Shown here: positions 5,450 to 49,692 of the stretch, piece after piece
Numbering within the stretch: position 1 is the first letter of the stretch
Layout: every line of letters starts with the position of its first letter
Origin: Ephemerocybe angulata
Lineage: Eukaryota; Basidiomycota; Agaricomycetes; Agaricales; Psathyrellaceae
Length of the DNA: 64,000 bases
NCBI GenBank assembly: GCA_013368325.1
Contig: JAACJK010000061.1
Location: 186,001 to 250,000 of the forward strand
Direction: 5' to 3'
Notes under the pieces: model-generated
Seen by the model: only the letters and a program-made list of their open reading frames with translations
What the model was told of the DNA's origin: nothing
Database searches by the model: none
Translations under genes and position numbers: made by a program

Positions 5450-5452
5450 AAT

Positions 5453-11500: not shown

Positions 11501-12294
11501 GGATTAAGAAAATCGCTATCTCAGGATACAACTCGAGGGCAAACGGGAAGATCGAGCGGCCTCATTGGGACGTCCGACAGAGCCTGTACAAAGCCACGGG
11601 GGGTGACGCGAGTAAGTGGTATTGGTTCTTCCACCATGTTATGTGGGCGGACCGCATTACTATCCGAAAACGCCTGGGATGCTCGCCTTTCTTTCTCCTA
11701 ACAGGCGCGGAGCCTGTCACGCCGCTTGACGTCCAGGAAGCCACTTGGCTAACTGAGCCGCCCACGGGTATGATGTCTACGGAGGACTTGATAGCCTCCC
11801 GGGCTAGGGCTCTGGCTAAACATCAGACTCACGTCAGCTCGGTCATGACCAGGATCAGCGAGGAGAAACGGCGTCGTGTCGCTGCCTACGCTGAAGCTAA
11901 CAGGGCTACTATCAAGAACTGGAATTTCAAACGGGGTGACTTGGTTCTGATGCGTAACACGAACATTGAGTCGAGCCTGAATAAGAAGATGAAGCCGCGT
12001 TATCTGGGTCCCATGGTTGTGGTATCACGAAACCTGGGCGGCGCGTATATCTTGGCGGAACTTAATGGAGCGGTCCATCAGAGCAAGGTTGGCGCTTTTA
12101 GGGTGGTTCCTTACTACCCCAGGAAGGCTATACCTCTGGAAAAGGACTTCATGGAAAACATAGATATTGATAATAATACACTGGCAGAAATGGAACTATC
12201 TTTGGATGATGGGGAACAGGGGGAACACAGGGATTTTAATTTTATGGGAATGGGGAAACTGCAAACCTTGGATGAAAATGCGGAGGAAGATTAG
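8530..12294 (+). CDS. pol: Pol of element B: reverse transcriptase, RNase H, integrase (-1 frame relative to Pro)
   Basis: About 1254 codons. Order: a linker (1-170); reverse transcriptase with YRSRWFCVLKKDGK and the catalytic box FVDD (about 358-361, in place of YxDD); RNase H with VDTSY (D531), KRELYG and ETDAQYI; integrase with an HHCC zinc site (HDAMGH ... CLLCQ), then D in HIDVMH, D974 in TDNGK and E1009 in KIERPH. The last two are separated by 34 residues. A C-terminal GPMVVV...AYIL module follows. RT before integrase identifies Ty3/Gypsy. The frame is open through the pro overlap; the probable slip site is 8509-8515. The stop TAG overlaps the stop of the antisense gene. Confidence 0.92.
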   Translation: MIDDQGEVALLVEMDESGFARFSGLAVPGQKEGFTENELKTIYLQQALKETGDQKAKDVFEQYLQTGAKTSAEAQPSGNPNKAGGVKGVSKGTKYKPVDKKVRPVYGIVPEEFQVVREIKGDPLAGMPELPTHPPEFTPKGRYTQERMEMFDKAHPGFWTDEERKLAHHLMAEQNEAFAWEESERGKFREDFFPPVKIPTVPHEPWVLKNIPIPPFLFSQICDIIKGKIDSGVYEPSSSSYRSRWFCVLKKDGKSLRLVHSLEPLNAVTIAHSGLPPLTEELAARFAGYACGTTMDLYVGYDERILDERYRDLTTFQTPFGAMRLVTLPMGWTNSVPIFHEDVTTILQPEIPEWTEPFVDDVPVRGPKTRYELPGGGFETIPENPEIRRFVWEHLTVVNRIIQRMKYCGGTFSGKKTFLCVPEFTVVGHLCSYEGRKPTEDRVGVISRWGPCRDVSDVRAFLGTVGTFRIFIPGYATRASAIQKLTKKEIRFEWGPEQDAAMEDLKTAVSEAPVLKPLDVTSGMPVKLSVDTSYIAVGWYISQQDPTDPKKWHYAKFGSTLLKPPEANYSQPKRELYGLVRALKENEYMLIMARPLIVETDAQYIQGMLKNPQLGPNATINRWIEQVRKFQFELQHVPGKTFAADGLSRRRAQPGDPPRKEFEEIMDIDPDEPITFSKPNPEDPEPLEFEDFKHLIDTRGGYLQEICEEEASEAWVETGFHSDAAQMAAINMLEVNRRARDPQGPTTSDILVNVEVLPEHSDEGYPSEWRTASALRMDAWLPIIRLWFLQKDRTRMPRGVEKGEWDKFKRAAQHFFLGKDGRLFRKENGYGMHQLVVGSEKRMYMLKAAHDAMGHRGTFATKGLLLKRVWWPELDRDVENYVKTCLLCQQRQKLLVKIPPIVTETPSVFQTVHIDVMHMSPASNGCGYIVHGRDHLTSWMEGRPLRKENAAAVGAWLFEDIICRWGCLREIVTDNGKPMIAAVEWLEKKYGIKKIAISGYNSRANGKIERPHWDVRQSLYKATGGDASKWYWFFHHVMWADRITIRKRLGCSPFFLLTGAEPVTPLDVQEATWLTEPPTGMMSTEDLIASRARALAKHQTHVSSVMTRISEEKRRRVAAYAEANRATIKNWNFKRGDLVLMRNTNIESSLNKKMKPRYLGPMVVVSRNLGGAYILAELNGAVHQSKVGAFRVVPYYPRKAIPLEKDFMENIDIDNNTLAEMELSLDDGEQGEHRDFNFMGMGKLQTLDENAEED

Positions 12295-13886
12295 GCTGAT
12301 GCCTCGTCACTTTCTTCAGCCGGCGAGCTGCCATCCTCGTACACCGACACTGACCCTTCGGGTTCGTCAACGGACATCGCCTCTTCGTCTTCGGACGTGG
12401 GGATTGATACCACTTCATCTGCTTCGTGCAGGGCGGGCTCGGACGGTTCAGCAACGGTGCGAGCGCGGGTCTCACTGGAGGAGGCAGGTACACCGACCAC
12501 GGCGCCGCGTGCGGGCGTGGCGGGCTGTACCTTCTTCGACGGGGACCGAGCGGTCTTGGGGATGGGGTCGCGACGCGTCCATGCGCCCGGCTTCGACGTC
12601 TCTTCCTTCGTCTCCGCGGTCTTGTTGCTCCGCGTGGTTCGGGTGACCTCCTGCTTGGAGGTCTCCTGAACTTCCCCCTTCTTGACCTCCTTCTGTTGCT
12701 CCTTCTTCTCCGTCACCTCTTTCTCGGTCTTGGTACCTTTCTGTACCTCCTTCTTCTTCTCCTCCTTCCCACGACGTTTCTTCTCCTTCGCCGAAATCTC
12801 CCCGCTCGCGACCGCCTTCCCCTGCTTCTTCGTCTCCTTCTTCGCTTCGACTGCTGGACCTGGCGCGGCCTTCGCCTCGCGCTGCTCTTGCTGCATCTGC
12901 TGAGCGGTGGCGGCGATGGCGGCGTTCATGGCTGCGGCTTCGTTCGCCTCGCGGGCGGCTTGGAGCGTCTGTTGGCGCGTCTGAGTATCCTCCCACGAGC
13001 GTCGAAGTAAGGCGTGGATGCCGAGTAGCTGCTCGATCTCGAACAGCGTCACGTTCATACGTGCGGAGAGTAAAGCGGAGGCTTGGTGGAGTTCCTCCTC
13101 GTCCAAGGACGCGGAGGGCATCGACGCGGTCACTTTCCCTGCTTCCGCTAGGATCGTGCGAGTATGCGCGGTGTCGCGCGGCGCTGGGACCGACTCTGGT
13201 CATAACAGCGTCGTCAGCGTATACCTGCGTGAGGCGGTACATGGAGAAGTGCGTACGGGGTGGAGCAGGGCGGGTTGTGGGTGCTGCACGATTTCCAGCG
13301 GCCCACTCGCTCAACTGGGGAGTAATGAGTCAGTTTGGGGGAGGGCGCTTAACCGGCAATCAAATAGGCGCTCACCGTGCGCTTCTGGGTTGGGCGGCCT
13401 GCGTTGCTCGGCCCAAAGTCAGGGAGCGGCCCGAGGTCTGTCATGGTGGAATCAAAGTCGGTCTGACCGGACTGGGCGGCTCGGCTTCGCTCGCGCAGCA
13501 GCTGGATGCGATCCTTGAAAGTACGAGGGAAGTGATTCTCCATGCTGGCCTGCTGGCTGGCCGTGTTGAACTCCGTTAGGAAGTTGTTCACCTTGGTGAG
13601 GAACTTTCCAACGTAGGATTCGCGCAGGGTGGCAGGATCGGACTCGATCCATGCCAGCTACAGGGTCGCGTGAAGATGAGCGGTGTGTAAACAGGAGTGC
13701 GGAACGTACGGCCTCCTCCAGGCCTGCCATCATGCGCGTGGCGTACTCTCTCAGCGCCGGGTCATCGCGCGCCTCGAAGGCTTGCTGCCGCTTCAAGTAT
13801 TCGGTGGTCGACGATAGGGCGTCATACCCTTTGGTGATAACGGACGTGCTTGAACGCCCGGCGGGTGTACTACTGGAATTGGCCAT
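12291..13886 (-). CDS. Antisense gene B2 (unknown function), spliced
   Basis: Opposite strand to gag-pol. It starts at ATG 13886. Exon 1 (MANSSSTPAG...) ends before a 52-nt intron (about 13654-13705, GTACGT...TGTAG). Exon 2 has a helical QQAS/LLRERSRAAQ region. After a further intron region (about 13138-13370, exact borders unresolved) comes the last exon to 12291: helical, with heptad-like QQMQQEQ, a very long Lys/Glu-rich stretch, and an acidic Ser-rich end. A TATA-like TTTATAAAAA lies 45-54 nt upstream. I recognise no known domain. Coiled-coil and charged composition suggest a binding or scaffold protein; that is inference only. Its stop TAA (12293-12291) overlaps the pol stop. Confidence 0.65.
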
Positions 13887-14496
13887 GTTATCTGAAGCGG
13901 TTTGACAAGGCCAGGCGGCGTGGCTTTGCGTTTTTATAAAGCATGTGAGACCCCGCCTGCTCCAAATCGTGAATGTTCCATGGATTTCTCGAGCGGGGTG
14001 TGTCTCGGTGTGAGACTCTGACCGGGGACGATCAGTCTGAGTTTGGGGGAGGGGGACCCGGGTTTGAATTCTCCTGGAGCTCAACCCGATCAATATTCCC
14101 AATACAACTCCAACTCAAAAGGATACAGGTCGTCACTAACCTGGCGATTGACTCAGATCCGGAGACACTTTACCGTCAGATTCAGAGGCTCACATAAGGT
14201 CACACACTGAGATTGGAGCAAGATAGGTGGAAATCGGGTAACAAATAAAAACAGGCATTGGAACTACAAGAATAGGACTACAAGATAGTGGGACAAGGAT
14301 AATTGGATACAAATATTGGGAATAGCGGAACGCGAAGTCCAAAACAAACGTACAAGGGACAAGGAACGAGGTCGACTACGAAGTAAGGAGTTAGTTTGGG
14401 GGATGCGGAACGAGAAGAAGAGTAGAACTTACCGAAGAAAGGGGAAGAGATAAGGAGAGGCGGCGTACAACGAACAACTACAAACCGACGCCGCTT
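13887..14496. promoter_or_regulatory. Spacer between antisense genes B1 and B2, with B2 promoter and PPT-like copies
   Basis: Holds the presumed B2 TATA box (minus strand, 13931-13940) and two copies of the 3' polypurine-tract core AGTTTGGGGGA (14040-14050 and 14393-14403). A third internal copy is at 13332-13342 in the B2 intron region. No open frame with coding character seen. Confidence 0.5.
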
Positions 14497-16809
14497 CTAT
14501 CCAACGACCTCGTGCTCCCCGGACTCACCGTTCTCACTCTCGACCTCGGTATCGCCCTCCTCGTCGACGTTGGCAGGAGCGGCCTCCTCCTCCTCCTCCT
14601 TCTCTTCTTCGTCTGACGTCAGGTCTCCCCCGACGTAGATCCGCTGGTCGACCGACTCGCGTACCTTCTCCTTCCCCTTGCCCTTACCCTCGGCCGCCTG
14701 CTTCTCGCGCTTCTCCTGTCGCGCCGCCTGGTGGTTGAGCGTGATCCTCGCACTTCGAGGATTAAACTGACGAGGTGCAGGCGGGGCGGGAGGTAAGTCG
14801 TGCTCGAGCACGTCTTGGGAAGGCGAAGCGGTTCCAACACGAGCACGGGCATCGATGGTGATGGACTCATCCGTGACCCTAGTCAGAAGGGCGTTCTGGG
14901 TGCGAGGGTGGAACTCCACCTGGGTAAGCGGGTCGGCTTCGGCGAACGCAATGATCTCAGTCAACGCGTCGAGATCCACCGCGTCGCCTACCAACTGGCG
15001 CAAGTGGTTGTGCCAGGAGCTATTGACGTTGCGTCGGAACCTGTTGGACAGGTCCTTCGCGTACGCCAGAGCCCGCTCCTCAGCGTCCTCATACAGAGCG
15101 TAGAGGACGCGAGCGGACCCCAGCTCCTGCATGATCAGGCGGGCCAGGGTTTGGACTCCTAGAAAATGGTTAGAAATTAATAGAAAAGGAGGAAATAAAA
15201 TTGGACTTACGACGCGGCGCGAGCTCGTCTATCAGGGAAAGGGACCCATCTCGTGCGGGACGGGGTGCCGTGAACTGGAACCCACAACAAGCGGCCTTGG
15301 TAGCAGCACACTGGTCACAACGAGTACCTCCCAAGAGGTCTCCGCCTGTACAGTCGATACCTCGACCCGCGCAGGTAGCGCAGGCGAAGCGGTGCTATCA
15401 ACATGACAGGGAGTAAGAAAAAGAATGGGATAGGAAAACGGAATGACTTACACGAGACTCGGGGTTCTGAACCGCCGGCTTGGTGAGGGTCTTGAAGAAC
15501 GGGGCGGCGTCAGTCAAGGGACCTTCCCGATACATCTTCGTAGCCCCGTCCTCCCTGATCGTCGCCGGGTTCTCGTCGGTCAAGTTCCTCTCGGCACCAT
15601 ACGCCCAGTGCCCGTTCGGCAGCTCGTTCCCATCCTGATCAACGAGCCTCTTCTTGAAGTTGTTGGGGTAAGGAAGGAGGATGTCGGGCGGGGTGATACC
15701 AGCTGGGTGGAATTTGTCGTCAGGGCGGAACAAGTACATGGCGCGTTTGCGCATCCCTTCGTACGGCGTCACTCCTACCGTCTTGACCGGCGTCTCTGGC
15801 ACCTCGCCTGAGGGGCCCGCTCCAACACGACCCTTACCCTTCTCACGCTTCTTCCCCTCCTTCGAATCGTCGGTCTTGCGCTTCTTGGGCGGCGGAGGCG
15901 AGTCGGAAGGGACGGAGATGGCTTGCTGAGGAGACGAGCCCGCTGTAGATAAGCGCGGCTCCCGAGCACGCTTGATGGGTGTGACTGGCGATGAGAGGAC
16001 ATTGGAGGGTCCCGCTACAGGTCCACTCTCCCCGGTGGGAGGACGAACCCGACTTGGCACCTCGATGAACGGTCGAAGTCTGGACACAGCAGCGGCGTCG
16101 GCCACTAACGAGTCGTACGCGGCGTCACGCAGAGGAATCCAGGCGGGGCCGTCATAGAGGAAGGATGGTCGAGAAGAGAATCCAGGTGGTGGAGGTGGTG
16201 GTGCAAGGTCGCCGTCAGCAAAGTCATGAAGGGGACCGAAAGACAACAGACTTTTGTTTGATGAACTATCGGTCTCTTCAAGCTTGAAAGGAAAAATGAG
16301 ATCTGAGACCTGTGAAACACCATAAGTCAGATCGAAAATCGGAAAAAGGAGAAACACAGGAACTTACGGAGGGGCTCCGATCGGCGCCGGCGAGGACTGG
16401 TGGAGCGGGGTCAGGACCTGGGAACCCGAGGAAGCTCCCTTGTGGCCTGGGATTGGCTTCGAGCCACCAGAACAAGTGTAGGGCCAGGCGGTCCGAGTAC
16501 GACGCCCCATCGAGGGCTAGCCAGAGGCGAGAGACGTGCTGACGGAAACATTCGAAGACGGGGTCCTCCCCGAGATCGAAGTCCGCAGCGGCTACAGCCT
16601 AAAACATGGAGCAGCGTCAGTGGGGATCTGTAAATAGAGGAAAACGGACTTACCATCTCATGAACCATGCTTTCAAGGTGGTGCTTCATGATGCCGCGCT
16701 TGCGATTGGTCTTACCAGGTGGAATGCCGCCGCCTCCGGTGCAGCAGTAAGGTTGGATGGCGCGAGAGGCAGAGTAGAGAGTAGGGAAGCGGGTTGCGAG
16801 AGAATCCAT
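14497..16809 (-). CDS. Antisense gene B1 with cysteine-rich exon, spliced
   Basis: Starts at ATG 16809 (MDSLATRFP); a TATA-like CTATAAGA is 40 nt upstream. Exons read: 16809-16654; 16598 to about 16370 (FECFRQHVSRLWLALDG); about 16308-15450, a long exon with a proline run, a basic PPPPKKRK patch like a nuclear localisation signal, and VTPYEGMRKRAM; about 15395-15210, cysteine-rich (CATCAGRGIDC ... RCDQCAATKAACC); and about 15160-14497, helical, ending in an acidic Glu-run tail. Introns have GT-AG ends. The Cys pattern resembles a zinc site and matches the one in antisense gene A1. Function unknown. The basic patch, Cys cluster and acidic tail would suit a nuclear nucleic-acid-binding protein (inference). 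Confidence 0.7.
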
Positions 16810-17490
16810 GTTGGGAAAACTGGACTTGAACGCACGCGTTGACACGGCTCTTATAGCTTTCGCCCCTCCTCTACAAGCCTCATCGCGATGGGATCGTAAT
16901 AAGCAGCTCAAAAGGAAGAGGAACTAGGAAACATACCTATGGCAAGAAAGAAGCGGCCTGTATGTCTAGCCGGAACTTGGAAAGAAGCGCGCTAAACGGC
17001 GAGTTCGACCCTCGTTCGAGACGGCAACATAAGAACCGACGCTGCGTAGGAACCCGAATGGAAAAGGAAGAACCTCTCATGTCAGAGCCAACTCTGACAT
17101 GGAACGGCGTATGTTTCGAGCCACGAACTGGGTAAGAAGAGCGCTAAGAGGGAAGGGTTCGACGAGAGTTCGAAACAAGGCGCTTAAACCGCCTCGAACT
17201 AGGAAAGAAGCCGGGGACGTGTTTAAACACCGGACCCGCTTCTTTCCGAGCCACGCCGGCCAAGTTAGCAGGGAAACAGAAGTTGGGCTTGAGCGGTTCT
17301 GGCAGAATCACTCGCGCCGGCTAAATGGGACTTGCGAAATTAGGAAAGAAGCAGAAAGCTAAGCGCCCGGGCGAAACAAGCGCGCGTCGGTAGCCGAGGA
17401 AGCGGGAGCAGTTGTTCGGCCGCCGCGCCAAATCAGGCTGGAAATGGAAACCGCGCACGCTGCACGTCTGACTGGGGACAGTCGAGACCT
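16810..17490. other. Non-coding region of element B upstream of B1
   Basis: Contains the B1 TATA-like box (16849-16856) and then about 600 bp without a credible gene. Just before the polypurine tract it has GGGGACAGTCGAGA, which is also found at this place in A and C. Confidence 0.5.
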
Positions 17491-17503
17491 AGTTTGGGGG
17501 AGA
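17491..17503 (+). other. 3' polypurine tract of element B
   Basis: AGTTTGGGGGAGA directly abuts the 3' LTR and would prime plus-strand DNA synthesis. Confidence 0.85.
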
Positions 17504-18715
17504 TGATACGACCGTGGACTATTTTCGCGGTTTTACGGTCGTATGTGTAAAGGTCGTAGCACCGACTCGAGCACTAAGCACTACACCGCTTACATTGGCC
17601 TCCAAGATCAGAACCTGGGATTGAGACAAAAGGGAGCACTTCAGACGCCGCTTGAGTAGGGGGACACTGGTGATCACTAGTAAGACGGATTAGTACTGAA
17701 ACCGCCTCAGGGTGACTGAGCGGTTTGACAAGTCGTGTACGAAAGGTCTTAGAGTCCTGGTGCGAGCGAAACACTTAGGGCGCCAGCAACAACAACCCCT
17801 CCTCGCCACCCAAGGGTACCACACCTGGCAAGTCGGATAACGAGTCAGGCCGTCTGAATTCTCAAACAAAGGATCCCCGCTCAATCGAGCAAGGAAAGGC
17901 AAGGCAGCGCAGGGATACCAGGCAGCAGGAGCAACGGCACTCGCGGCACTCGGAGTTTTCCGACCGCGTCGGCAAAACCCGAAACTCGGCACGGGCGGCT
18001 TCAGACTTAGACGTTTCACGCGAGGCGGTCTCGTCAGCCCAAGGCTGTCCGACCACACACGGAAAAAGGGTAACAGGAATAACAGGGGTGAGTCCCTCGA
18101 AATGCAAGGGAGCTCCACAACGGAGAGTCCAAGCGCGAGAGGGATAAGCCCGCGTCACTATAAAAGGAAAACAGGGTCATCAATAACGGAGCGGCATCCT
18201 CGGCATGCTGCGCCGCGTCCAACTTGGCGCGAAACCAAGCAACAACCGACTCAAGCCTCGCGACCGCACGACTTAGCACCCTAGAAAATTGAAGGAAAAT
18301 CGTAGACGGCGTGACTGTGACCAAGGGGGGTCACACTATAAAAGTAAAACCGCGTAGCACTTAGTTTCTTCAGCTTGTATACTTCAGATTTAATCTCTCT
18401 CTCTCAATCGTACTTTGTGTCTCTTTCATTACGCCGCGTCGGCTTTTGAGGATTCGTGAAACGGAAACTGGAACGCTTTGCCTACTGAGTCGAGACATAC
18501 TACTTCCTCAGTCCGCTTAGTTAAATAGACTTGCCTACGCCTCTCACGAGCGTAGTCTCTTCTTGGAGTTGGTTTTGTGTGGTGTGTAACCGTCGAGAAT
18601 TGTACCCTCCGGCCACGCCGCTCTCTTCCAACGAACTCAGCCTTTGTGTTTGTGTGGTTGGTTTTGGTTGCAAACGATTGTCATCGTTTGTGTCTTTTCT
18701 CCGCACTTCGCATCA
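17504..18715 (+). repeat. 3' LTR of element B
   Basis: 1212 bp; no difference from 4238-5449 found in the parts compared. This suggests a recent insertion. Confidence 0.93.
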
Positions 18716-18750
18716 GCGTGTTTGGCTCTTAGCCCCGTAGCCGCACATCA
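18716..18750 (+). repeat. 5' LTR of element A, last 35 bp
   Basis: Begins with the second GCGT copy (18716-18719) and ends CACATCA. It is the continuation of 2880-4237 and matches the end of the 3' LTR (51471-51505). Confidence 0.92.
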
Positions 18751-18752
18751 TC

Positions 18753-18770
18753 TGGAGCCCACCGCGAGGG
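18753..18770 (+). other. Primer-binding site of element A
   Basis: The same 18 nt (TGGAGCCCACCGCGAGGG) as in B and C, 2 nt after the LTR. Confidence 0.85.
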
Positions 18771-19310
18771 GGAGTCAGAATCGATCAAAGCTTCATTCGT
18801 GATCAAGCTCTCGAGCGAGATCCGTTTGTCCGTTTCAGATAGTAAACGAGTTCTATCAACATAGCGTCGAGAAGACCTGTGCTTGATAAAGGAAAAGGAG
18901 TAGAGCGACCCAGGAAGAACCCAGTTCTCCCTAGTCAACCCGTTGGAACCCAACCTTCCGTTCGCGCGCGAACGAGAACAGCTGTTGCCGAAGCAGGAAC
19001 AGAACTAGTTGCCTTTGATAACTATCCCAGACCAGGGACAAGTTTCCAAGCACCTACGAACGCGAAAGCGAGAAGCAGCAGAGTCGTACCACCGGCTGTA
19101 CCTCCTACCAGAACCCGCCAAGTCGCCCCGTTCACGAGAGGAAAACCTCGAACTACCGCACTTGCGCTAGCCTCGAAATCCAATCGCGTAGAACCCGCGC
19201 GCAATCCGAGACGAGAAAGTAGAGAAAGTTCGCAATCCACGAACTCCAGTCGCAGACGCCGTAGAAACCGCAGACATTCGAGTAGCAGTCAATTATCAAC
19301 GACCCCTACC
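18771..19310 (+). other. Leader of element A with AUG-less open gag frame
   Basis: The gag frame is open from 18846 with no ATG until 19311 (155 codons). The predicted peptide is rich in Arg, Ser, Pro and Thr and ends in an Arg cluster before the Gag ATG. It may be a non-AUG N-terminal extension or simply leader. Confidence 0.5.
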
Positions 19311-20960
19311 ATGGCTGGCGAACAAGCGCGAATCCGAGCCCTCGATCCTGATGCCACTGGCGAAGGATTCCCTGGGCTCCCTATGTCGAATAAAAACTTC
19401 CCGAATAGTTATTCCGCGAATCGTCCTAAGTACGATTCTACGAAACCAGAGGAGTTCCTAGAGTATGTGAGACAAGTAGAGGATGTGATCAGCGCATGCG
19501 AAATCATCCCGGATCGCTTGAAGAAGAAGGCATTGGTTCACTTCCGAGATGTGTCGGAACAGAGTCTCTGGACAACGCTACCTGAATATAAAACGGGTAC
19601 CTACGCGGAGTTCAAAGAGAAACTGTTCTTGTACCATCCTACCGCAGCGCTACAGAACCGCGGCAGTCTAGCCCGGATCCAGCTGTTGTGCGCGAGGCAC
19701 CAAGGGATAGGTCTAGACGCGAGTCATACCCTATTGCAGTTCGCGCTGAAGTTCAGGGCCGAGGCAGCTAAACTCGAGAAACATCTCATGAGCAACAATG
19801 AATTGGTTAACCTTTTCTTGGGCGCGTTAGATGAGCCTTTCCGTACGAAAGCATGGGAGGTACTCTCGAAAGAAGCCGAAACGGATGACACCCTGGAAGT
19901 CGTTGCAGGAGAGAAGATCATTCCGTTTGACCGATGGATCTCGTGTGCTGAAAAGTTGGCGGTTCAGAGAGAACGCTTTGGAGAAAGGTTCGGAGGAAAG
20001 AAGGGAGGTATCTTGGCTAAACCCTCGGTCGTCTCTGCCACCCCGAGCACTCCAGCAGTGAATCCCGCGGCCCCATCTAAGTTGTACGAGCCCGGTTGGA
20101 ACGACGAGCCCACTGTGAAAGTCGAGTACGAGGACCTCGAACACCGAGTTCTGCAAGGAGTGAGTTCTTTGCTAGACCAGAAATTGAGTGCCATCGATAA
20201 AAAGATGATCTCTCGGGATGCCTACATGGAAACTCAACTCGAGGAGTTGCGCGCTGGTCAAGGACGCGCTGACAAGTTCATGCGTCAGCCCAACAACTTC
20301 GCGGTTGCAACCCAGCAGAACAATCCAGGCTCGAGAGGGGGCTTTGGATTCGGGAACAATACGAGAGGACCACCTCCTAGCGCGGGGTCGATTTGCTACT
20401 ACTGTAATGGACAGGGTCACTTCGCGAACGACTGTCAAGCCAAGCAGAAACATATCAGCGAAGGCAAGATTGTATCGGGACCGGATGGGACCTTCGACAA
20501 GCATGGTAATCGCCTGCGCAATATGCCCGGCACCTCCTTGAAAGAGGTAGTAGACAAACTGCCCATGCCCACGGCTAGCCAGAACGTCCAGCACTACTAT
20601 GATGACAGTGCGGACTATGTGCGCGACCAGTTCCATCAAGCGCCGTACCAGGAATCAGAAATGATTACTCGGGACGAAATGAACATTCTGCGAGACGAGA
20701 TTTATCATCTGAGTTCCTTAAGGGAACAAGGATCGTCCGCGCGAGCCAAGAGCATGCAGCCACAGGCCCAGTTCGTACAGAAACCAGTGGTCGAGCCTTG
20801 GAAGGAGCTCCAGCAGGAGCAGAAGCGGAGCAATCAATTGATGTCCCAATTAGTCGCGGCACTTACCCCGATGGTTGGGAGGAATCAATTCCCTTTGCAG
20901 ACGCGGTCTGGAGCGAACCAAGGTGGCGAGGATGATGAGGGTTTTCTCAGCGACCCGTGA
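19311..20960 (+). CDS. gag: Gag of element A
   Basis: 549 residues from the first ATG (CCTACCATGGC, strong context). Capsid-like helical region with YSANRPKYDS and LEYVRQVEDV, parallel to STNRPTYDP in B, then the CCHC knuckle CYYCNGQGHFANDC, then a Gln-rich tail. The codons before the stop are GGT TTT CTC AGC GAC CCG TGA. GGGTTTT (20939-20945) is a canonical -1 slippery heptamer in the correct phase, and the -1 frame is open from there into pro. Confidence 0.9.
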   Translation: MAGEQARIRALDPDATGEGFPGLPMSNKNFPNSYSANRPKYDSTKPEEFLEYVRQVEDVISACEIIPDRLKKKALVHFRDVSEQSLWTTLPEYKTGTYAEFKEKLFLYHPTAALQNRGSLARIQLLCARHQGIGLDASHTLLQFALKFRAEAAKLEKHLMSNNELVNLFLGALDEPFRTKAWEVLSKEAETDDTLEVVAGEKIIPFDRWISCAEKLAVQRERFGERFGGKKGGILAKPSVVSATPSTPAVNPAAPSKLYEPGWNDEPTVKVEYEDLEHRVLQGVSSLLDQKLSAIDKKMISRDAYMETQLEELRAGQGRADKFMRQPNNFAVATQQNNPGSRGGFGFGNNTRGPPPSAGSICYYCNGQGHFANDCQAKQKHISEGKIVSGPDGTFDKHGNRLRNMPGTSLKEVVDKLPMPTASQNVQHYYDDSADYVRDQFHQAPYQESEMITRDEMNILRDEIYHLSSLREQGSSARAKSMQPQAQFVQKPVVEPWKELQQEQKRSNQLMSQLVAALTPMVGRNQFPLQTRSGANQGGEDDEGFLSDP

Positions 20961-26069: not shown

Positions 26070-26109
26070 GTCGAGCGGTTCGCAGAGTCATCGAGGACGA
26101 TGATTTTTT

Positions 26110-26122
26110 AGTTGGGGGGAGA
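26110..26122 (+). other. Internal copy of the polypurine tract of element A
   Basis: AGTTGGGGGGAGA, identical to the true 3' polypurine tract at 50104-50116, lies 40 nt after the pol stop. It may act as a second plus-strand primer site or mark an old boundary. The stretch 26070-26314 contains nothing else I can name. Confidence 0.5.
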
Positions 26123-28919: not shown

Positions 28920-28921
28920 TC

Positions 28922-38106: not shown

Positions 38107-38491
38107 ATACGTACCATTTTGCGCCCTCCAACTTCGTATCCTCATAATCCCGCCCGAAGTGTTGAGCGAACGAACCAGCGACGAGATTTCGAACAGCGGG
38201 GAACGGTGATACCAGCAAAGGAGTAGAGTGAGCAGCATCAAGCCCAGCCAGATGTTCCGCTCAACGGTGAGACCAAGGAAAGCGGTTTACATCTGGGTGC
38301 ATGTGCCTGGCGCTGCTCAGAGTCGGAGGGTTGAGGGGGCGGTGGTGGTGGAACGAACGGTCGCTGGCAGGGCGTGGGCGCGTGGAACGGGAACAAAATC
38401 GTGGGACCGTGGCGAACCATTTCGATCCGTGGCCGACCGTGGCGGTGTTGGCCCCACGGATCGCTGTTCCCATCACGGTCCCCACGCTCCT
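38107..38491. repeat. Right subterminal region of Plavaka
   Basis: No gene. About 38340-38491 is dense in CGTGG/CCACG pentamers (GTGGGACCGTGGC, CCGTGGCCGACCGTGG), mirroring the left end. Confidence 0.6.
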
Positions 38492-38517
38492 CACGCGTCT
38501 GGCCTTTTCCTGATTAG
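38492..38517 (-). repeat. Right terminal inverted repeat of Plavaka
   Basis: 26 bp, exact reverse complement of 32016-32041; followed by TA (38518-38519). Confidence 0.92.
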
Positions 38518-38519
38518 TA

Positions 38520-38867
38520 GGGATCAGCTGGGATCCCGCCCTGAGGATAGGACTCCAGTCTTCCAACAAGACCACTTCTACGACGCTGGGTCTCGCTCGC
38601 AACGTACCCATACATTGCGGAAATGAAGTGATAGCATACGTGCAATTGCACGTTGCGCGAGACACGGCCTATAAAGTGTTGTTAGGGAGACCCTTTTTGA
38701 CCGCCATGAGTGCGACGTCGGCGAGCAAACCAGATGGTACGCACACCATTTCACTCGTAGACCCCAACAATGCCAGGCAGATCACCATCCCTACGTTTCC
38801 ACGGGGTACCATACCGGAGCAATACCGAGAGAGGATCGAGGGGAGTTTTCGGGCTTCGATGATCTGA
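38520..38867 (+). pseudogene. pro: Protease of element C, 3' part
   Basis: Continues 31209-32015 after Plavaka: ISWDP, GLQSSNKTT, LGLARNVPIHC and LLGRPF, colinear with B. It ends ATC TGA at 38865-38867. The TTTTC slip region at 38843-38849 precedes the shift into pol. Confidence 0.85.
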
Positions 38868-41800: not shown

Positions 41801-42691
41801 AGAATCGTTACAGATAACGGAGCACCGATTATCGCAGCGGTGAAGTGGATAGAAAGAAAGTATGGCATTAAAGGTATATCCATATCAGGATATAACTCGA
41901 AGGCCAACGGACGCATAGAGAGACCGCATTGGGACGTGCGGCAAAGCTTGTACAAAGCTACGGGTGGAGACGTTAGTAAATGGTTCTGGTTTTTCGACCA
42001 CGTAATGTGGGCCGATCGTATTACCGTTCGAAAACGTCTCGGATGCTCACCATTTTTCCTGCTAACGGGGGCGGAACCGGTGACTCCATTAGACGTACAG
42101 GAAGCAACGTGGCTCGTAGAGCCACCCAGCGGACTGATTTCCACAGAAGAGCTCATTGCATCCAGAGCACGAGCACTGGCGAAGCATCAGACGCACGTTG
42201 AGCAGGCGATGTTACGAGTCGATGCTGAGAAACGGAGGCGTGTTGCGGAATATCAGAACGCCAATGCGGCCACTATAAAATCTTGGAACTTTAAGAGAGG
42301 AGATTTGGTCTTAATGCGAAATACCTCGATTGAAAGTAGCCTCAACAAAAAGATGAAACCCAGGTACTTGGGACCCTTAGTCGTAGTAGCAAGGAATAAG
42401 GGAGGGGCTTACATCCTCGCGGAACTCAATGGAGCCGTTTATCAGAGCAAAATCGCAGCGTACAGAGTTATTCCGTACTACGCGAGAACATCGATCAAAT
42501 TAGAAGACATACCTGGCTGGGGTCTAGATATTGACCAAGAAACTTTAGAAAACTTAGAGAATTCAGAGGAAAGTGGGGAGCAGAAAAACGTCGATTTTAA
42601 CTTCAATCGTATGCCTATACTACGGACAGGACAGGAGGACGATGAAGAAGAAAACGCTGAGGAAACAGACAGTGAGAACTACGACGAATAA
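38864..42691 (+). CDS. pol: Pol of element C: RT, RNase H, integrase
   Basis: About 1275 codons, -1 relative to pro, intact. RT with YRSRWFCVLKKDGK and FIDD; RNase H with VDTSY, KRELYG and ETDAKYI; integrase zinc site HDSNGH ... CVLCQ; acidic triad in HIDTLHM, TDNGAPI and GRIERPHW. C-terminal GPLVVVARNKGGAYIL. It is closer to B than to A in most blocks. It begins without ATG, as in the other two elements, and ends in an acidic tail. Confidence 0.92.
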   Translation: MSHAQGDVACIIEFSETGLPRVVSVTEAANGKEFESEEIKVLYLAQALENENVDHRDRETFAQFMQSSKDSENERTTTGHRPQNKPKIKGVSSGKKYKPVDKKVRPVYTTSPEEFRIVREIKGDPLKNLEKLPTHPPEYSPTGRYTQERKDWFDSAHPGFWLPEERKLMHHFMSVQEEAFAWEESERGRFKPEYFKPVKIATIPHTPWVERQGPIAPYLFDALCDMMRSKIEAGVWEPSNSSYRSRWFCVLKKDGKSLRIVHSLEPLNAVTIAHSGLPPNVEELASRFAGLSCGTTMDLYVGYDERLLDESSRDLTTFQTPFGAMRLVTLPMGWTNSVPIFHDDVATILQPEIPKYTEPFIDDVHIKGPKSRYIQPGGTYETIPENSGIRRFVWEHLNDVHRITERMKYCGGTFSGKKTNLCRSEFTVVGHQVSYEGRKPTPDRVGVIMRWGECRDLSEVRTFLGTIGTFRIFIRDYATRAEPIQKLTRKNTPFVWGPEQEAAMEDLKKALKEAPLLKPLDVTSGLPLKLSVDTSYIAVGWYLSQKNSHSEEGWNFIRFGSTLLNETEANYSQPKRELYGLMRALKENEYSLIMARPLIIETDAKYIHGMLKNPGAAPNATINRWIEQVRKFTFKLEHVSGKTFALADGLSRRRGQPGDSPRQEFPECEDVDENSEITYSKKYSWDEDPLEFEKFKHEIDSRGGYLQEIVSEPRLDEESVDEFIDLAHERAILSKAEHRRHLETYLLQELSQGGPLDILTLKEMTHIDPAEDAPEPYPVQIRTAQAKRMDAWIPYITQWLRDPRARPTEIASSEWQAFERLAKKCFTAEDGRLFRKEDGEGHHRLYVDQNQRMRIMRHSHDSNGHRGAYATRVFISKRFWWPELVSDVEWYVKTCVLCQHRQKLLVKIPPTVTETPSIFQVVHIDTLHMTPKSNGCGYIVHGRCALTSWMEGKPLKQESGAAIGAWLFSDIICRWGCLRRIVTDNGAPIIAAVKWIERKYGIKGISISGYNSKANGRIERPHWDVRQSLYKATGGDVSKWFWFFDHVMWADRITVRKRLGCSPFFLLTGAEPVTPLDVQEATWLVEPPSGLISTEELIASRARALAKHQTHVEQAMLRVDAEKRRRVAEYQNANAATIKSWNFKRGDLVLMRNTSIESSLNKKMKPRYLGPLVVVARNKGGAYILAELNGAVYQSKIAAYRVIPYYARTSIKLEDIPGWGLDIDQETLENLENSEESGEQKNVDFNFNRMPILRTGQEDDEEENAEETDSENYDE

Positions 42692-42739
42692 CGTTCCAGA
42701 ACCTACAGAACCTTCGAACAGACACGAACAGAGCATCAC

Positions 42740-44210
42740 CTAGTCGCTACGGTAGCCCTGGGGGAGCTCAGAGAGATCGCTCTCGTCTCCTGACTCGATC
42801 TCATCCTCCTCCTCCTCAGAAACATCCCCCTCGGAGACCACCATGCGCACATCTTCAGCCTCGACCTCATCGGCCCAAGTCTTCCTGGCACGAGTGCTAC
42901 GAACGGGGTTAGCGCGAGCTTTACCCTTGTCCCGAGACGAAGAAGCGACGGGAGTCTCGACGGGCGCTTCGACCTGAGTCTCAACCGGAGTGGCGATGGC
43001 CTTGATGACACGGGAGCGAGATCCACGAAGAGCCTTCGGAGGAGGACCGCGCGTAGTACCACGAAGGTTGACCACGACGCGATCCTCGGTGAGTTCGTTG
43101 CGACGAGTGGGAGCGACGGCACGACGAGAGGAAGGAGTGCGGTCGTCGGGGGTAAGAGTGTCGGCAGGAGCGATGCGAGAAGGAACGACGTCGTAGCTGT
43201 CGAGATGGACACGCAGGACCTCGGTCTTCGCGTCGTGCTGACGACCCAGACCGACCCAAAGCTCTTGCATAACGTCCATTTGGCTTTCCAGCCCGAACAT
43301 TTGGGTGCGGATTGCCATCAGCCCACCCACAATCCGAGCCTCGGGTCCATCAGCCTCGGCGTCGCCCATAGAAATGAGTTCGCGAGTACGGCGCGTTAAG
43401 CCGTAGAAGTTGGGGGGACCTTGAGTCGGGGTCCTCCAGTCTGCACGAACAAAACAGTTAAGAATAGGAACAACAAGAAAAGAAATGAGTGAATACGCAC
43501 TCTGAGCAGCGGAGCCGCCGCCGGAGCGAGCTACAACGCGCGTCTTGTTAGGAAGAGTCGTTTCGCCGGTAGACTGTAGAAGAGTCAGTAAACGAAAGGC
43601 AGAGACAAAGGAAGAAAGCTACTAACCGGGCGCTTGGTACCACGAGAAGCGCCGGCACCTCCAGAGGCGCCAGACTTGCCGTCGCGCCAAGTGGAGACTG
43701 CCATGTCGCCGGGAAGCATCTTCCCCTCCTAGGTACGACAGAAGCGAGATTAGTTTCGACAAAAGAAAGAAAAAGAACGAGGAACGCACTTTGATACGGC
43801 GGCACTTGGTCACAATCGCGCCGAGACGCTCACGGAGCTCGGGATCGACCAAGGGGGTCTCGCCGGGCTTGGTACACTTCGCCAGGATAGCCAACACGCT
43901 CTGCAGCTTGGAACACTTGATACCGAGGTTGGGGTTCCCTAACCAGTAGGGGCTTCCCTCCCCGTGGATAATCTAGAAAAGGGAGTGAGGAAAATCAGGC
44001 CTAGAGATACTACAAGAAACAAAGAGAAAGCTTACGAAGGCTTCGACCTTGTAAAGGTACTTGAGCTCCAGCAGCTTGGCGGCGATTTGAGTATTGTCCA
44101 TCCCCTTGAAGAGGGCGTCGAAGATCTCTTGCGGATAGTCACCGTTGATCTTGAGGTCGTTCTCGGCGAAGTCGGCGCAAGATTGGGCGGATTGGATAGT
44201 ATCGGACATG
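42740..44210 (-). CDS. Antisense gene C1 (unknown function), spliced
   Basis: ATG at 44210 with TATAAATA on the same strand at 44281-44274, 64 nt upstream. Exon 1 (MSDTIQSAQS...LLELKYLYKVEAF) ends near 44037. The next exon (about 43970-43792) has KCSKLQSVLAILAKC and LRERLGAIVTKCRRIK. Short exons follow around 43730-43626 (GDMAVSTWRDGKSG...SRGTKRP) and 43560-43503. A last exon ending at 42740 has a helical AIRTQMFGLESQMDVMQELW part, a basic SRDKGKARANP part and an acidic EEEEDEIESGDES end. GT-AG introns of about 50-70 nt. Function unknown. It ends 48 nt from the pol stop, convergent. Confidence 0.65.
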
Positions 44211-44729
44211 GTAGAAAGCGGAATGAGTAAACGATGGAGGATCGAATGAAGAGTGAAGAAAAACATACCTGCTTATTTATACCAGAACATACGACGCGTC
44301 GGGTGCAGTCGAACCCGGGGACGTGGCCAAACATATCCTATGGTTGGAGATCGGGTCCATCGCTGAAGGCGGTACTGGATCGATCCGACGCGTGCAACAC
44401 AGAGACGCGTGAACACATCCCCAGATGCAGGAGGGCGCTCCAAAGAAGTCGAGGGTCAGTATGGATCTGTCAGGCGCCCTGACAGCGGGAGTAAAACCAA
44501 AACGGGGCACCGCGACACCGATTTTGGACAAAGTCCGAAAAACCGCCGGTCCGAGGCCAAGCAATCGGCGCTTGTTGGAACTCCCATAAGCAGTGCGCGA
44601 GAACATAGAAATGGAAGGGTTAGAATGGCGCTAAGGAATAGAGAAGCGGGGCATAAACAAGAAGTAGTCAAGGAACAGGCTTACCAAGGAAAGCGCAGAG
44701 ACGACCGCCTGAGGACAGTCGAGATCTAA
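44211..44729. other. Non-coding region of element C before the polypurine tract
   Basis: Contains the C1 TATA box (44274-44281) and otherwise no credible gene. It ends with TGAGGACAGTCGAGAT, conserved at this position in A and B. Confidence 0.5.
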
Positions 44730-44742
44730 AGTCCGGGGGAGA
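44730..44742 (+). other. 3' polypurine tract of element C
   Basis: AGTCCGGGGGAGA directly before the 3' LTR. Confidence 0.8.
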
Positions 44743-46408
44743 TGATACGACCGAAGTCGAAATCGCGGAATTTCGCGCGTTTTCGCCTCCGGAGCGGTAC
44801 CCATCGACCTCGTAGGCGTGTCTCGTCCTCAGTAAACTTGCCCGGCTCTCAGAACTTACCTCTGAGACCCGTCACCAGCCTCTCGTGTGCTCGAGCGCGA
44901 GAGGACGGCGTACCTTAAGTCAGACGTACGATGGTTGGCGGGAATAAAGGACCAGCTTGTGGTCCCGTCGACGGAACCCAGGATGGTTCTCGAAACCGTT
45001 AAATAACATACCATTAACTGTACGCTAAGTACAGGGTAATCTAAACCTACCTACGTCGAAGACAAGTTGAGCCGCGCTAGGCAAGCGCGCGCCCAACTGG
45101 TGCGCCTCTACCCTAATCGAGAAGAACGTCAGCATCGTCTCCCGCTCCGCCCGTACGGCCCCGAACCTGACCACTTACCAGAAGCCTCGGATTTCGCTAT
45201 GTCCTCGCCCCACCTTGGTTTCGAAGCCCCTCGCATGCGTTGGAGAACCCGCCAAGACCGAGTCACAGTCAGCTAGATACAGAAATAGATTGGAAACAAT
45301 AAGACATACCTTCAGAAGAAGACGGCTCAGTCAGCGTACACCTCGAGGAGGGTACGCGTCACCCTAGGGGCCTCGAAGAGCGGACCAGAGAAGCCTTCCT
45401 CGAGGAAAGGAAGCACACGCAAGACGCGTGGGGCGCAAGCGCACAAAGCGCGCCGCTTCGGCAACACGCGAGGGCGCATGGACACGTCTTGGCCGAACGG
45501 CGGCACTCACCTTCTCCCTCGGAAAACCCACTTCCCCGTGTATTTAGAACCCCCTTCCTTCCGATACTGTATTCCGTCCTTTTCTTGGCGTTTGTTCGTG
45601 GCTTGTGTTTGTGGTGTTGGCAGTTTTGTATTGTGTCGTATATACTGGATCGATCTGTAAAAGATAGTTAGCGAATAGTACCCCCTTTGTGGACTTTACC
45701 TGTGTGATCTTTCCACCTGTGACGTCCCTCGAGTCGATTCTCGCGTTCCACGACGCGATCGAGTCCTCGAAACCTACGAGTTTTCCTCTCGTAGTTCCGT
45801 GCCCAGCCTAGTTTCCGTCCGTCTGTTGCCCAGCCGTCTTCCTCCGTGTACCATACATACCTAGAAACTTGTTAGCATACCCAGACCTCAGAATAGAAAC
45901 TTACCTTAAGCCCCAGACGTGTGTAGAGCGAGGGCGAGTCCAAGCAATCCCATCCTGATCCATCTCGGCGATCGCCGACTTCCCATCAGTCACGCGGTTT
46001 AGTCAGCACCGCGCGCGCTCGTTGCCTACATAAGCGCCCGTTCCCCAGATCGATTTCTGTGCTCTTTGCACGCACCAGAAAATCACGAGAAAATCTTCTT
46101 AATTCCTAAGAATATTCGTTACCCTAGAATCAATTTTACCGTCCTCCGAAGATAGACAGGAAGCCGTCCTATCAGGACCACCGAACTTTGGACAGCTGAG
46201 AACTCCGCGGATTTTCCCTAAGTCGATTTTGAGTACCTCAGAGCTCCCAATAAAATCCAATAAAATCGTCATAATTCTCAGAAATATTTAGAACATAGGA
46301 TCCAGGATTCTCTAGCCTAGTATCGTTATAGAATCGTCTTAACGGACGAGCGTTGGTGTGTTTGTGTTGGGTGTGAGCATTTTCCGTGCTCACGTCCGCT
46401 TCTCATCA
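44743..46408 (+). repeat. 3' LTR of element C
   Basis: 1666 bp; no difference from 27254-28919 found where compared. Confidence 0.92.
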
Positions 46409-46984
46409 GCGGTAGACTTCGCGGCACGAACAGTGGCATCGCCATCGGCCGCGGTAGCCGCAGAAGCAGCGGTAGGCATCGGGGTATCCTGACGCGGACC
46501 ATAACTTTCGCGGCACTCGCCCAGGTACTTGAGAACCAGCTCGAGCTTCTCGTTATCCGGAGGCGTGACCTCGCGAGAGGAGAACGCGGCCTGGTGAGCA
46601 GTCAACGCGGCATGGAGTTTCCCAACGATGCGACGGTGACGAGAGTTGTGCTTAAGAACGGCTTCGACTGCAGGTGGCTCCTATGAGAAGGGTCAGTCGC
46701 GGGGTAAGGAGATCTGTAAGAACCGAACGTACAACGAGGTCAAACAAGCCCTCTTGGGCGCGACTAACCGCGTTGGCGGCACGAGGGTTCAAGGTCTTGG
46801 AACCAGGAAGGATGTGCTTGAGGCAATCGTTGCGAACTTGGGTGAGGGACGTAATGCTGGTCCCTAAGAGGTGGTCTTCAAGGTCATTCGCACCTTCATT
46901 GAAAGTGCGAAGGATAGACCTGGGAGACGCCGGAGCAGCAGCCTCAGGAGGAGGAGAAGGAGAAGGGGAAGGAACGACAGGCAT
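46409..46984 (-). pseudogene. Antisense gene A2, 5' part (split by element C)
   Basis: Starts at ATG 46984 with TATAAATA on the same strand at 47046-47039. Exon 1 (46984-46733) has a proline run, then SILRTFNEGANDLEDHLLG and AVSRAQEGLFDL. An intron of about 52 nt (GTACGT...CATAG) follows. Exon 2 has VEAVLKHNSRHRRIVGKLHAA and KLELVLKYLGECRES and is cut by element C at the GCGG duplication. The remaining exons are at 26315-27253. No known domain. Confidence 0.6.
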
Positions 46985-47637
46985 TGAGAGAGAGAAGGTC
47001 GAGTAAATCGATGCTGAAAAGGAGAGAAAACTCCCCAGTATTTATACTCGAGAGAGAACTGGAGCGGGAACAGGGGTCTAAGTCATAATCTAGCATTGGG
47101 TCTCGGAGTCCGGCACCCAGAGATGGCGACATGTGAGGTAGCGCGTGGAATAGGATGCCAGAATAGCTCGGCGCGAGGAATATCGCGCTGCAGCGAAGCT
47201 GAGAGGAATTGCACGCGTGAAACGCTATGGAAGGGGAGCGTAATTGCACCCGCGCGCCATCAAACAGGGGGGCGCTTAACGGCTAAACCGAGATCTCGAG
47301 GACCGTGACTACGACGAAGGTTCCAGGCGAGAGGTGCGATCGACAAGGTCGAGCCCCTGTCGATCCTCCGCCATGATACCAAGAAGTGAAGTCGAGAGAT
47401 AGAGAAATCTTACCTCGAGAGGTGAACCTCAGCCGTTCACACGGGCGCTTAAACGCGCGAGTCAGATCAACCGTTCTGAATGCCAAGATACGAAGTACGA
47501 TGCATTGGAGACGGCGGTAAATACGGTACATGAAGAGTCCAGGGTGATAGGGAGTATGTAATATGTACGGGAGTCAGTGTCTGTTTGGGAGCAAAGAGTC
47601 CAAGAAAAGAGGTCCAAGAAAAGAAGAAGCCGAGCGC
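46985..47637. other. Spacer between antisense genes A2 and A1
   Basis: Holds the A2 TATA box near 47039. I see no gene in the rest. Confidence 0.45.
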
Positions 47638-49692
47638 CTAAGCAACGGGGGGAGCGTCCTGCGCGTCCACCGGGGCCTCGCCTTCGCCCTCCTCCTCGTC
47701 GATGGGAACATCCCCGTCACGAACCTCGCCTCCCTGCTCCTGTTCGACCGAGAGGTCGTCCTCGACCTGCGAAGACGAACCTGACGAAGGGAGAACCGCG
47801 ATTTGAGGAACGGCGGACGACGACGACGAAGGAAGGGGACCGAGATCAGGACTGATGAAGTTGGAAGGGTTGACGACGGGGAAGGCGATGGTGCCCTCGC
47901 TGGTGCCTCGGTCCTGAGCGGCGGCATACCAAGCCGGGGGAGCGATGTTATTGATGAGCTCGTCGGAACCACAGTCGCGAGTGCTGTTCAAGATGTTCGC
48001 CAGGAACGACTGAACAGCATCGACCTTGAGGGCCTGGAACTCGCAGGTCTTGCGCATTTCCTCGTACAGCGCGTGGTCGGCGACGAGCATCTGGTAGACG
48101 CGATTGGTATCTAGAGGCCAAGAGATATGAGTAAACACCAAGACAAGAGAAGGAAACGGGTTGGACGTACGGTTGACGCTCGGCGCCTGACTCGTAAGGA
48201 ACTCCATCTCTCGGACTTGAGCCAACGTGACGCGGGGAGGGCGCGACGAGGGCGCCCACGAGCACGACTGGCTCGAAGTCTTACAGGCCGAGCACTTCCC
48301 GTTGGGGTCTTTCGGGTCCACGACGCACTCTTGAAGTGCACCTCGAGCGAGGCAGCGACCACAAGGAAGAGGTGGCTAGGGTCCGGCGCGTGAGTAAGAA
48401 AGAGATGAAGCAAGGAAGAGAAACGAACCCTGGGAGCAGGCGTGGTGACGCGCTTGAGGAGCTTGACGTCGGCGCGAGACGAGAGGAGTTCGGAGGGCGG
48501 CAACAGGTGTTGAAGGACTTCGGCCATGGCGATCTGATGCGCTTGAAAGGCGGCGGCCTGCCTCGCAGCAGTAAGTTGCCTTCGGCTTTGCGCCTCGTCG
48601 ACCTCACCCTCGCCGTCGCCCCCAGCATCCTCAGCATCGCCCCCAGCGTCTCCAACGAAGTCCCCGGTAATGCTGGAAGAGCTGCTAGACGAAGCGGCAT
48701 CGTCGGACTGTTCAGGATCATAGGAGTCGACGTCGATCGCAGTCCTAGCATTCTTAGGAACGTGAGGGCGAAGTTGATGGGCAGTGTACAGAGAGGGCGG
48801 AGGCTGCGTGGCACGGCCCTTGCCTTTTGAAGACGAAGTTTTGGCAGACGACGAGGGACCAGCACCGCGGGATGACGAAGTCGGCTCGACTTTGATCTTC
48901 TTGAGGGGAGGCGGCTGCACGCCCAAGAACTGTTCAGATAAGTCGACCGAGACGAGTGGAGAAAACGAGACGTACCCCAGTGTCACCGGAGGACTTGCGC
49001 TTGGACGGAACCTCGGCAGGACGAGGAGAACTGGGATCGGCCACTTGGCGTCGCCGACCGACGTCCTTGGTCTCACCGAGCGAAATAGGCGCCGGTTGCG
49101 TCGCAATCCGCTCTCGGGTGCCTGGAGCTTTCGGACGCGAAGTGGAGGGTTTGGAACTGGAGATGTGCGCGTTGACGCTGGAGAAGGATGTGAGTACACC
49201 GCCAAAACGGGCATCGAAGCTACGCACCGGGCAAGGGGCGCGGACACCGTGCCGTGAGCTTTCCGAGAGGAACCCGAGGAAGGGGCCTTGGACGAAGGAG
49301 GTGTAGCGGGAGTAGGCCAGTCGGAGGGCGGAGGATTAGGTGGAAAGAGGGGCGCGGCCCACTGAGCTTTGGGATCGAGCGCCGACGAAAGGGAGCGTTT
49401 GGTTTTCTTATCAGAAGTGGCCTGGCCGAGGTAGTACGCTATGTAGCTGCGAAAAGCGGGGAAGTTGGGATGCTGAGTTAGCAGAGGGTTGGTATGGATG
49501 AGTTGCTGTGGATCGAGAAAGAAAAGAACTCTTAGCGTCCGATCGTAGAGCAGACGAGAGTCGGCTTACCACTACGCGGATCCACTGATCGTAGAAGGCG
49601 TTTAGCTTTTGAAGACTCCAGTCCGGGGACGCCGTCGCCACCTGAAGCGCAGCCACCATCTCGGCGGCCATACCAAGGGAAGGATCGGCCAT
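47638..49692 (-). CDS. Antisense gene A1 with cysteine-rich exon, spliced
   Basis: ATG at 49692 (MADPSLGMAAEMVAAL). A weak TATA-like ATATAGCC is about 75 nt upstream. Exons include WSLQKLNAFYDQWIRVV, FPAFRSYIAYYLGQATSDKKTKRSL, an Ala/Ser/Pro-rich part, PPPLKKIKVEP (basic, NLS-like), a helical AAFQAHQIAMAEVLQHLL part, a cysteine-rich exon (about 48353-48175; RCLARGALQEC ... KCSACKTSSQSC), and a last exon (about 48110-47638) with HALYEEMRKTCEFQALKVDAVQSFL and an acidic tail. The order (helical start, basic patch, Cys exon, helical exon, acidic tail) matches B1. Function unknown. Some exon borders are approximate. Confidence 0.65.

Follow-up and report, generated by a model that had tools for sequence, protein, structure and literature searches.

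Some plant Ty3/Gypsy elements carry an accessory gene that lies antisense to pol, between pol and the 3' long terminal repeat (LTR). In the account of such genes in ref. PMC7264820, this arrangement (aORF-3R) is represented by Grande gene23, RIRE2, Retand and PvRetro13, a promoter of its own and a nuclear protein are reported for Grande gene23, and the domains named for plant aORFs include Transposase_28 or SMC. The same account mentions a fungal case, the Gypsy element Boty of Botrytis, whose antisense gene is named brtn in Botrytis cinerea in the passage on it in ref. PMC8365987. Here we describe a stretch of 64,000 nucleotides from the mushroom Ephemerocybe angulata (contig JAACJK010000061.1, positions 186,001 to 250,000; hereafter the window), which contains three nested Ty3/Gypsy-type LTR elements, A, B and C. 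In the interval from pol to the 3' LTR, on the minus strand, A carries two antisense units (A1 and A2), B two (B1 and B2) and C one (C1), each modelled with 3–5 introns. We are almost certain that these units are real, selected genes, and we think it somewhat probable that they are, as a whole, accessory genes transcribed and spliced by the host, whose proteins would be nuclear factors regulating their own element.

The comparison with plant aORF-3R, already drawn in an earlier note on this DNA, fits in position and orientation, since the frames are antisense and lie between pol and the 3' LTR; the plant genes are present in most copies of a family, as far as the account in ref. PMC7264820 goes. 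The E. angulata genes differ in having 3–5 small introns, in numbering up to two per element and in their fungal host. A Pfam scan of the antisense proteins found no domain in common with the plant aORFs (Transposase_28, SMC), and the word 'intron' does not occur in the text on aORFs in ref. PMC7264820, which nevertheless calls for antisense and spliced transcripts to be looked into. Boty brtn, likened here by description only, is also an extra antisense gene in a fungal Gypsy element, with the difference that its host is an ascomycete. The earlier note knew of no described fungal set with multiple introns, and the publications searched, in the parts that deal with such genes, describe neither multi-intron antisense genes from a fungal element nor A, B or C; what is not new is an antisense gene in a fungal Gypsy element, known from Boty. 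As far as searched, there is no earlier description of a single element lineage whose multi-intron antisense genes encode two or more types of protein.

The five units have the extents first proposed for them, except that C1 starts one base lower, at 44209 (Table 1). Their modelled introns are small, as claimed (49–64 nt, GT–AG). The treatment of A2 as one gene did not hold for the window copy: its span of 46984–26315 is interrupted by element C within the second exon, and for this reason the halves are not one spliced gene here. In our searches of the E. angulata genome (58.7 Mb, 232 contigs) the two halves are contiguous in 27 of 29 other A2 loci, two of these loci being one copy. The model is uncertain at intron 3 of A1, where five of the six NCBI homologues of the protein have the residues FLGVQ; this would place the acceptor 15 nt earlier and leave an intron of 46 nt. 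TATA boxes had been placed 40–64 nt upstream of four of the five genes; four genes do have a TATA-like box, starting at −46 (B1), −52 (B2), −62 (A2, TATAAATA) and −72 (C1), and upstream of A1 there is only ATATAG at −82. The B1 box reads TATAAG in the window, and the eight other copies covering it have TATAAAA (five), TACAAAA (two) or TATAAG (one); TATAAA is found at −66 to −85 in three of five C1 relatives. On the whole minus strand (64,000 bases), TATA[AT]A occurs 18 times.

B1 was compared over 11 copies (the window and 10 others; the incomplete copy of B at L036 and the hit on C218 were not used), and its variable columns are distributed over the three codon positions as 53:48:129 (p = 2e-12). 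The ratio of nonsynonymous to synonymous substitution rates (dN/dS) between the window copy and the 10 others is 0.126–0.329 at dS values of 0.005–0.142, with a median of 0.216 over the 54 pairs with dS above 0, which are not independent. Counting indels shorter than 60 nt (a single larger one, of 421 nt, was left uncounted), five of seven in B1 exons are multiples of three, both exceptions falling in copy C190, as against 30 of 33 in introns and flanks that are not. The donor GT of one intron is lost in C13, and large parts are missing in C28, C47 and C103; decayed sites apart, the GT and AG ends of all introns present are kept. B2 behaves similarly (19:13:56, p = 9e-9, over exons 1–3 and part of exon 4), with dN/dS of 0.024–0.17 in nine of ten comparisons and 0.631 in the tenth (B_C28), which has 3 changes only. 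The two halves of A2 give 6:6:28 and 5:4:22 (p = 6e-6 and 5e-5), in alignments where one copy is present twice (L082/L083) and, in that named A2c, also the window copy (the reference and L055). For C1 against its relative at locus C143, the variable sites are 63:44:156 (p = 2e-18) and dN/dS is 0.153 (dN 0.137, dS 0.894), compared with 1.48 and 1.58 in the shifted forward frames and 1.47, 0.24 and 1.96 in the reverse frames; since third positions are common to C1 and the reverse frame at 0.24, it is the introns and splice sites of C1 that fix its strand, not dN/dS alone. To judge by these comparisons, B1, B2, A2 and C1 are under purifying selection on the spliced frame. Copies carrying the gene number 11 for B1, 27–28 alignment rows for A2 and 7 loci for C1, all found via the antisense gene itself, so that copies lacking it do not enter the counts.

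This selection on encoded amino acids and reading frame also bears on the proposal that the antisense RNA, and not a protein, is what matters, pairing with genomic RNA to dampen or time transposition. Such a role is discussed in the account of antisense genes in ref. PMC7264820 and suits an arrangement convergent with pol, in which the ends of B2 and of the pol frame of B (at 12294) share four bases, tail to tail. Selection on the protein is not expected if only the RNA matters, however, and we regard such a role as improbable.

Searching the genome with C1 gave six further loci (exon 5 identity 31–80%), and all six have the gene on the strand opposite to pol, just past its 3' end, next to a pol 3' part that is 69–84% identical to that of C. 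A four-intron model with phases 0, 0, 0 and 1, together with R..KR and DKGK motifs, fits C1 and five of the six loci, the splice sites having been chosen by eye with C1 as guide; one modelled intron at C134 requires a GC donor, and C143 has splice sites at matching places but lacks an in-frame ATG close to where the start is expected. In a full-length protein alignment, from which C143 was excluded, five relatives are 27–46% identical to C1. The spliced models of C215 and C60 are letter-identical to NCBI proteins D9611_011098 and D9611_008634. B2 is a probable, not proven, remote relative of this family: a colinear hhalign match covers 215 columns (E = 2.1e-4, probability 46%), and inspection by eye puts two introns, the first and the one that follows the KR motif, at matching places. 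Multi-intron antisense genes are thus conserved across copies and across divergent families.

Two further explanations can be weighed at this point. Both strands of the window are rich in long open frames, and the units might be chance frames or a gene-finder artefact; the codon-position bias with in-frame indels, the four-intron model shared in spite of 27–46% protein identity and the two exact matches to NCBI annotation refute this for B1, B2, A2 and C1 and make it hardly credible. The units might instead be captured host genes or hitchhiking cargo with no role for the element, as intron-bearing genes resemble host genes and retroelements are able to transduce such genes according to the discussion in ref. 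PMC7264820. Yet at each of the six additional C1 loci the gene follows a pol of this one element lineage, purifying selection acts between copies, and protein-database searches, made with B1, C1 and A1 and not with B2 or A2, listed only E. angulata proteins of the same families. We consider capture very improbable, and disfavoured as to function.

Splicing is strand-specific, so that an antisense intron stays in the sense genomic RNA and is preserved by reverse transcription, while copying through spliced RNA would strip introns from sense genes. The argument in the earlier note that antisense introns survive only if their mRNAs are not the template for retrotransposition is right in substance, by established knowledge of splicing. 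We propose that the antisense genes have small promoters inside the element, located between the 3' LTR and pol, from which host RNA polymerase II transcribes them, and that the host machinery splices these transcripts; the sense genomic RNA that is reverse-transcribed would carry the introns backwards and unspliced, and the genes would keep them because the copied RNA runs in the pol sense. The proteins, most likely nuclear, would then act in trans on the expression of the element, for example as transcription regulators or anti-silencing factors. HBZ of human T-cell leukaemia virus type 1 (HTLV-1) offers a retroviral parallel: this nuclear regulator, a bZIP protein, is the product of a spliced antisense gene that lies close to the 3' LTR and is transcribed from it. 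That gene resembles the E. angulata genes in structure and position and in the nuclear regulation that we propose for them, and differs in that their promoters appear internal and Pfam shows no bZIP; an HTLV antisense promoter is also mentioned in ref. PMC7264820.

Predicted protein features point towards the nucleus. Exon 5 of A1 and exon 4 of B1 encode six-cysteine motifs (CX2CX8CX10CX2CX6C and CX2CX6CX10CX2CX6C, respectively), to which the alignment of the two proteins is confined, and exon lengths show that the cysteine exon is bordered in both by introns of phase 0 and phase 1. Gal4-type Zn2Cys6 (Zn_clus) clusters have the spacing CX2CX6CX5-12CX2CX6-8C, which B1 fits (2, 6, 10, 2, 6) and from which A1 departs at one interval (2, 8, 10, 2, 6). 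The six cysteines are invariant in all six E. angulata NCBI homologues of A1, which are 48–97% identical to it. A1, B1, B2 and C1 end in acidic tails, with 13–19 Asp or Glu among the last 40 residues, and basic stretches resembling nuclear localisation signals are seen by eye in B1 (PPPPKKRK) and C1 (RGTKR). For a C1 relative, P0007, an all-helical domain is predicted at residues ~1–120 with a confidence score (predicted local distance difference test, pLDDT) of ~86, followed by a long helix at 210–262, most of the remainder scoring below 50.

That long helix and the selection between copies also agree with an action of the proteins in the retrotransposition cycle and not on expression, by helping to assemble particles, to bring the pre-integration complex into the nucleus or to choose integration sites, functions that ref. 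PMC7264820 discusses for plant aORFs. A structural protein needs no separate antisense gene with its own promoter, however, and Pfam and PDB sequence searches revealed no similarity to capsid, integrase or import factors; we consider a cycle role rather unlikely. At five of the six C1-type loci the protein is 31–47% identical to C1 compared with 69–84% for the adjoining pol 3' part (at C143 both are ~80%), as would be expected for a factor tracking a changing target. Candidate promoters of their own, predicted splicing by the host, nuclear-type proteins and evolution much faster than that of pol at these five loci together suggest factors acting on the element's own expression.

Several observations weigh against regulation by nuclear factors, or against parts of the gene models on which it draws. 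No antisense protein reaches a Pfam cut-off, and A1 and B1 have no match at all; below the cut-off there are three matches for B2, one for C1, one for the 3' half of A2 and three in the C1 set, in one member each. Zn_clus itself did not match A1, B1 or P0014–P0019 even when E values of up to 1 were allowed, and structure prediction gave a poor model for P0014, a relative of A1 (mean pLDDT 36.9), so that a zinc cluster rests on the cysteine spacing and we call the exon zinc-cluster-like, no more. A2 has no acidic tail, and comparison did not show a relation of A2 to the C1 family; a structure search with the helical domain of P0007 found no clear neighbour. Relatives of B1, C1 and A1 came from E. 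angulata only, in protein-database searches that need shared five-residue words and score the best candidates only, so that distant relatives may exist. The closest NCBI protein to B1 (P0001, 654 aa, 90% identical) agrees with our model at most junctions and omits part of exon 2, P0002 differs more, and the A1 homologues P0015 and P0016 read through modelled intron 4. Decayed copies with frameshifts or a stop occur, namely B_C125 (a stop codon in B1 and an 11-nt gap in B2), B_C190 (two single-base exon deletions in B1) and the C218 copy of A2, the one copy in which that frame breaks. Lastly, the earlier note would have given up its proposal had purifying selection been lacking in related copies; selection is seen for B1, B2, A2 and C1 and may hold for A1, where, beside the conservation of the protein, a nucleotide comparison with one locus, over the 3' part only, gave 3:5:10 (p = 0.11) and dN/dS of 0.254.

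These elements show that genes with several introns can persist in a retroelement over long divergence when they are placed antisense. Protein families that are under selection and have no Pfam match offer a concrete handle on the function of antisense accessory genes in LTR elements. Genome annotation in mushrooms may also mistake such element genes for host genes: 19 E. angulata 'hypothetical proteins' at NCBI are related to B1 (2), C1 (11) and A1 (6).

As side observations on element A, A1 varies strongly between many copies of A in the genome, with parts down to ~67% protein identity, and the main A2 exon on those contigs is mostly 97–99% identical; the 3' region of A looks mosaic.

The elements themselves show the Ty3/Gypsy features: pol in the order reverse transcriptase (RT), RNase H and integrase, LTRs, a primer-binding site (PBS), a polypurine tract (PPT) and short target-site duplications (TSDs). 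Their LTRs start with TGAT, their TSDs are 4 bp long and their common PBS is TGGAGCCCACCGCGAGGG (all by eye), and the PBS TGGAGCCC and the 4-bp TSDs count towards this membership. The LTRs of A are 99.85% identical over the aligned part. Integrase_H2C2 and RT_RNaseH exceed their Pfam cut-offs in A, B and C, in Gypsy order, and RVT_1 scores 13.8–21.9 bits, under its cut-off of 29.6; because RVT_1 is recognised below the cut-off only, the three represent a somewhat divergent Gypsy lineage.

Table 1. Elements, pol frames, modelled antisense genes and internal PPT-like copies in the window
Feature	Position	Strand	Remarks
Element A (outer)	2880..51505	+	TSD TCGT; self-comparison; LTR ends and TSD by eye
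A, 5' LTR	2880-4237 plus 18720-18750	+	split by B; self-comparison
A, 3' LTR	50117-51505	+	self-comparison
Element B	4238..18715	+	sits in 5' LTR of A; TSD GCGT
B, LTRs	4238-5449 and 17504-18715	+	identical pair
Element C	27254..46408	+	sits in exon 2 of A2; TSD GCGG
C, LTRs	27254-28919 and 44743-46408	+	identical pair
pol frame of B	8500..12294	+	RNase H, integrase zinc-binding; RT under cut-off
pol frame of A	22287..26069	+	Pfam
pol frame of C	38675..42691	+	Pfam
A1	47638..49692	-	element A; 6 exons, 588 aa
A1 exons	49692-49570, 49505-49228, 49177-48976, 48914-48429 (or from 48929), 48375-48171, 48110-47638	-	
A2, 5' half	46409..46984	-	exon 1 46984-46733; exon 2 part 46680-46409, before C insertion
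A2, 3' half	26315..27253	-	exon 2 rest 27253-27236; exons 27179-27079, 27023-26928, 26878-26315
B1	14497..16809	-	element B; 5 exons, 696 aa
B1 exons	16809-16654, 16598-16368, 16309-15452, 15394-15211, 15158-14497	-	
B2	12291..13886	-	element B; 4 exons, 473 aa
B2 exons	13886-13710, 13657-13376, 13314-13257, 13195-12291	-	
C1	42740..44209	-	element C; 5 exons, 410 aa
C1 exons	44209-44036, 43972-43790, 43728-43627, 43573-43501, 43440-42740	-	
Internal PPT-like copy in B	14040..14051	+	between B2 and B1
Internal PPT-like copy in A	26110..26121	+	between pol and A2; own hairpin upstream

The PPT core of A and B, AGTTKGGGGGRG, occurs five times in the window (0.03 expected), always on the plus strand: at the 3' PPTs of A and B and internally at 13332, 14040 and 26110. 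A palindrome, GACTG-NGGA-CAGTC, lies ~16–25 nt upstream of the 3' PPT in A, B and five C1-family loci (sites in the window at ~50095-50116 and 17470-17503; loci L042, L045, L046, L051 and L054), and in most of them pairing extends to the outer positions. It is imperfect in C of the window, and in the C143 stretch no PPT was found with the search pattern. Upstream of the internal copy at 26110 (~26085-26122) the stem differs in sequence but still pairs, and at 14040 it contains a mismatch. In a control, 6 of 5000 random window positions had a stem of at least 5 around an RGGA loop 13–20 nt upstream. The order is pol, C1, PPT in C; pol, B2, internal PPT, B1, PPT in B; and pol, internal PPT, A2, A1, PPT in A. 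As a lead and not a result, these orders would be expected if antisense modules had been added one after another at what were then the 3' ends.

VANC proteins, described as anti-silencing proteins of VANDAL DNA transposons in the parts of ref. PMC10398659 that concern them, provide a candidate functional analogy only, as element-encoded factors that act on the chromatin of their own element; they belong to a plant DNA transposon. A wider reading would have this Gypsy lineage use the antisense strand as a refuge for intron-bearing genes, with stacked modules each once bounded by a hairpin–PPT unit (fossils at 14040 and 26110) and products forming a fast-evolving, self-specific nuclear anti-silencing system, the counterpart of VANC; we hold this to be speculative and doubtful as a whole.

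Extra copies of the PPT core AGTTTGGGGG were also seen in the 3' region of B, at 13332, 14040 and 14393 (four in the window including the 3' PPT, 0.11 expected), one of them within intron 2 of B2. Element C contains a Plavaka-type DNA transposon (~32100-38670) that separates its gag-like frames, which lie upstream, from its pol frame and is recognised by PF18759 (E = 7e-28) in the frame 35106-35639. The left window edge (3-2924, minus strand) encodes a Helitron helicase-like domain and DUF6570, and element A apparently inserted at or in this Helitron-like stretch. To the right of the elements, 58558-61689 contains NPHP3_N/NACHT and AAA-type NTPase frames, typical of fungal STAND genes.

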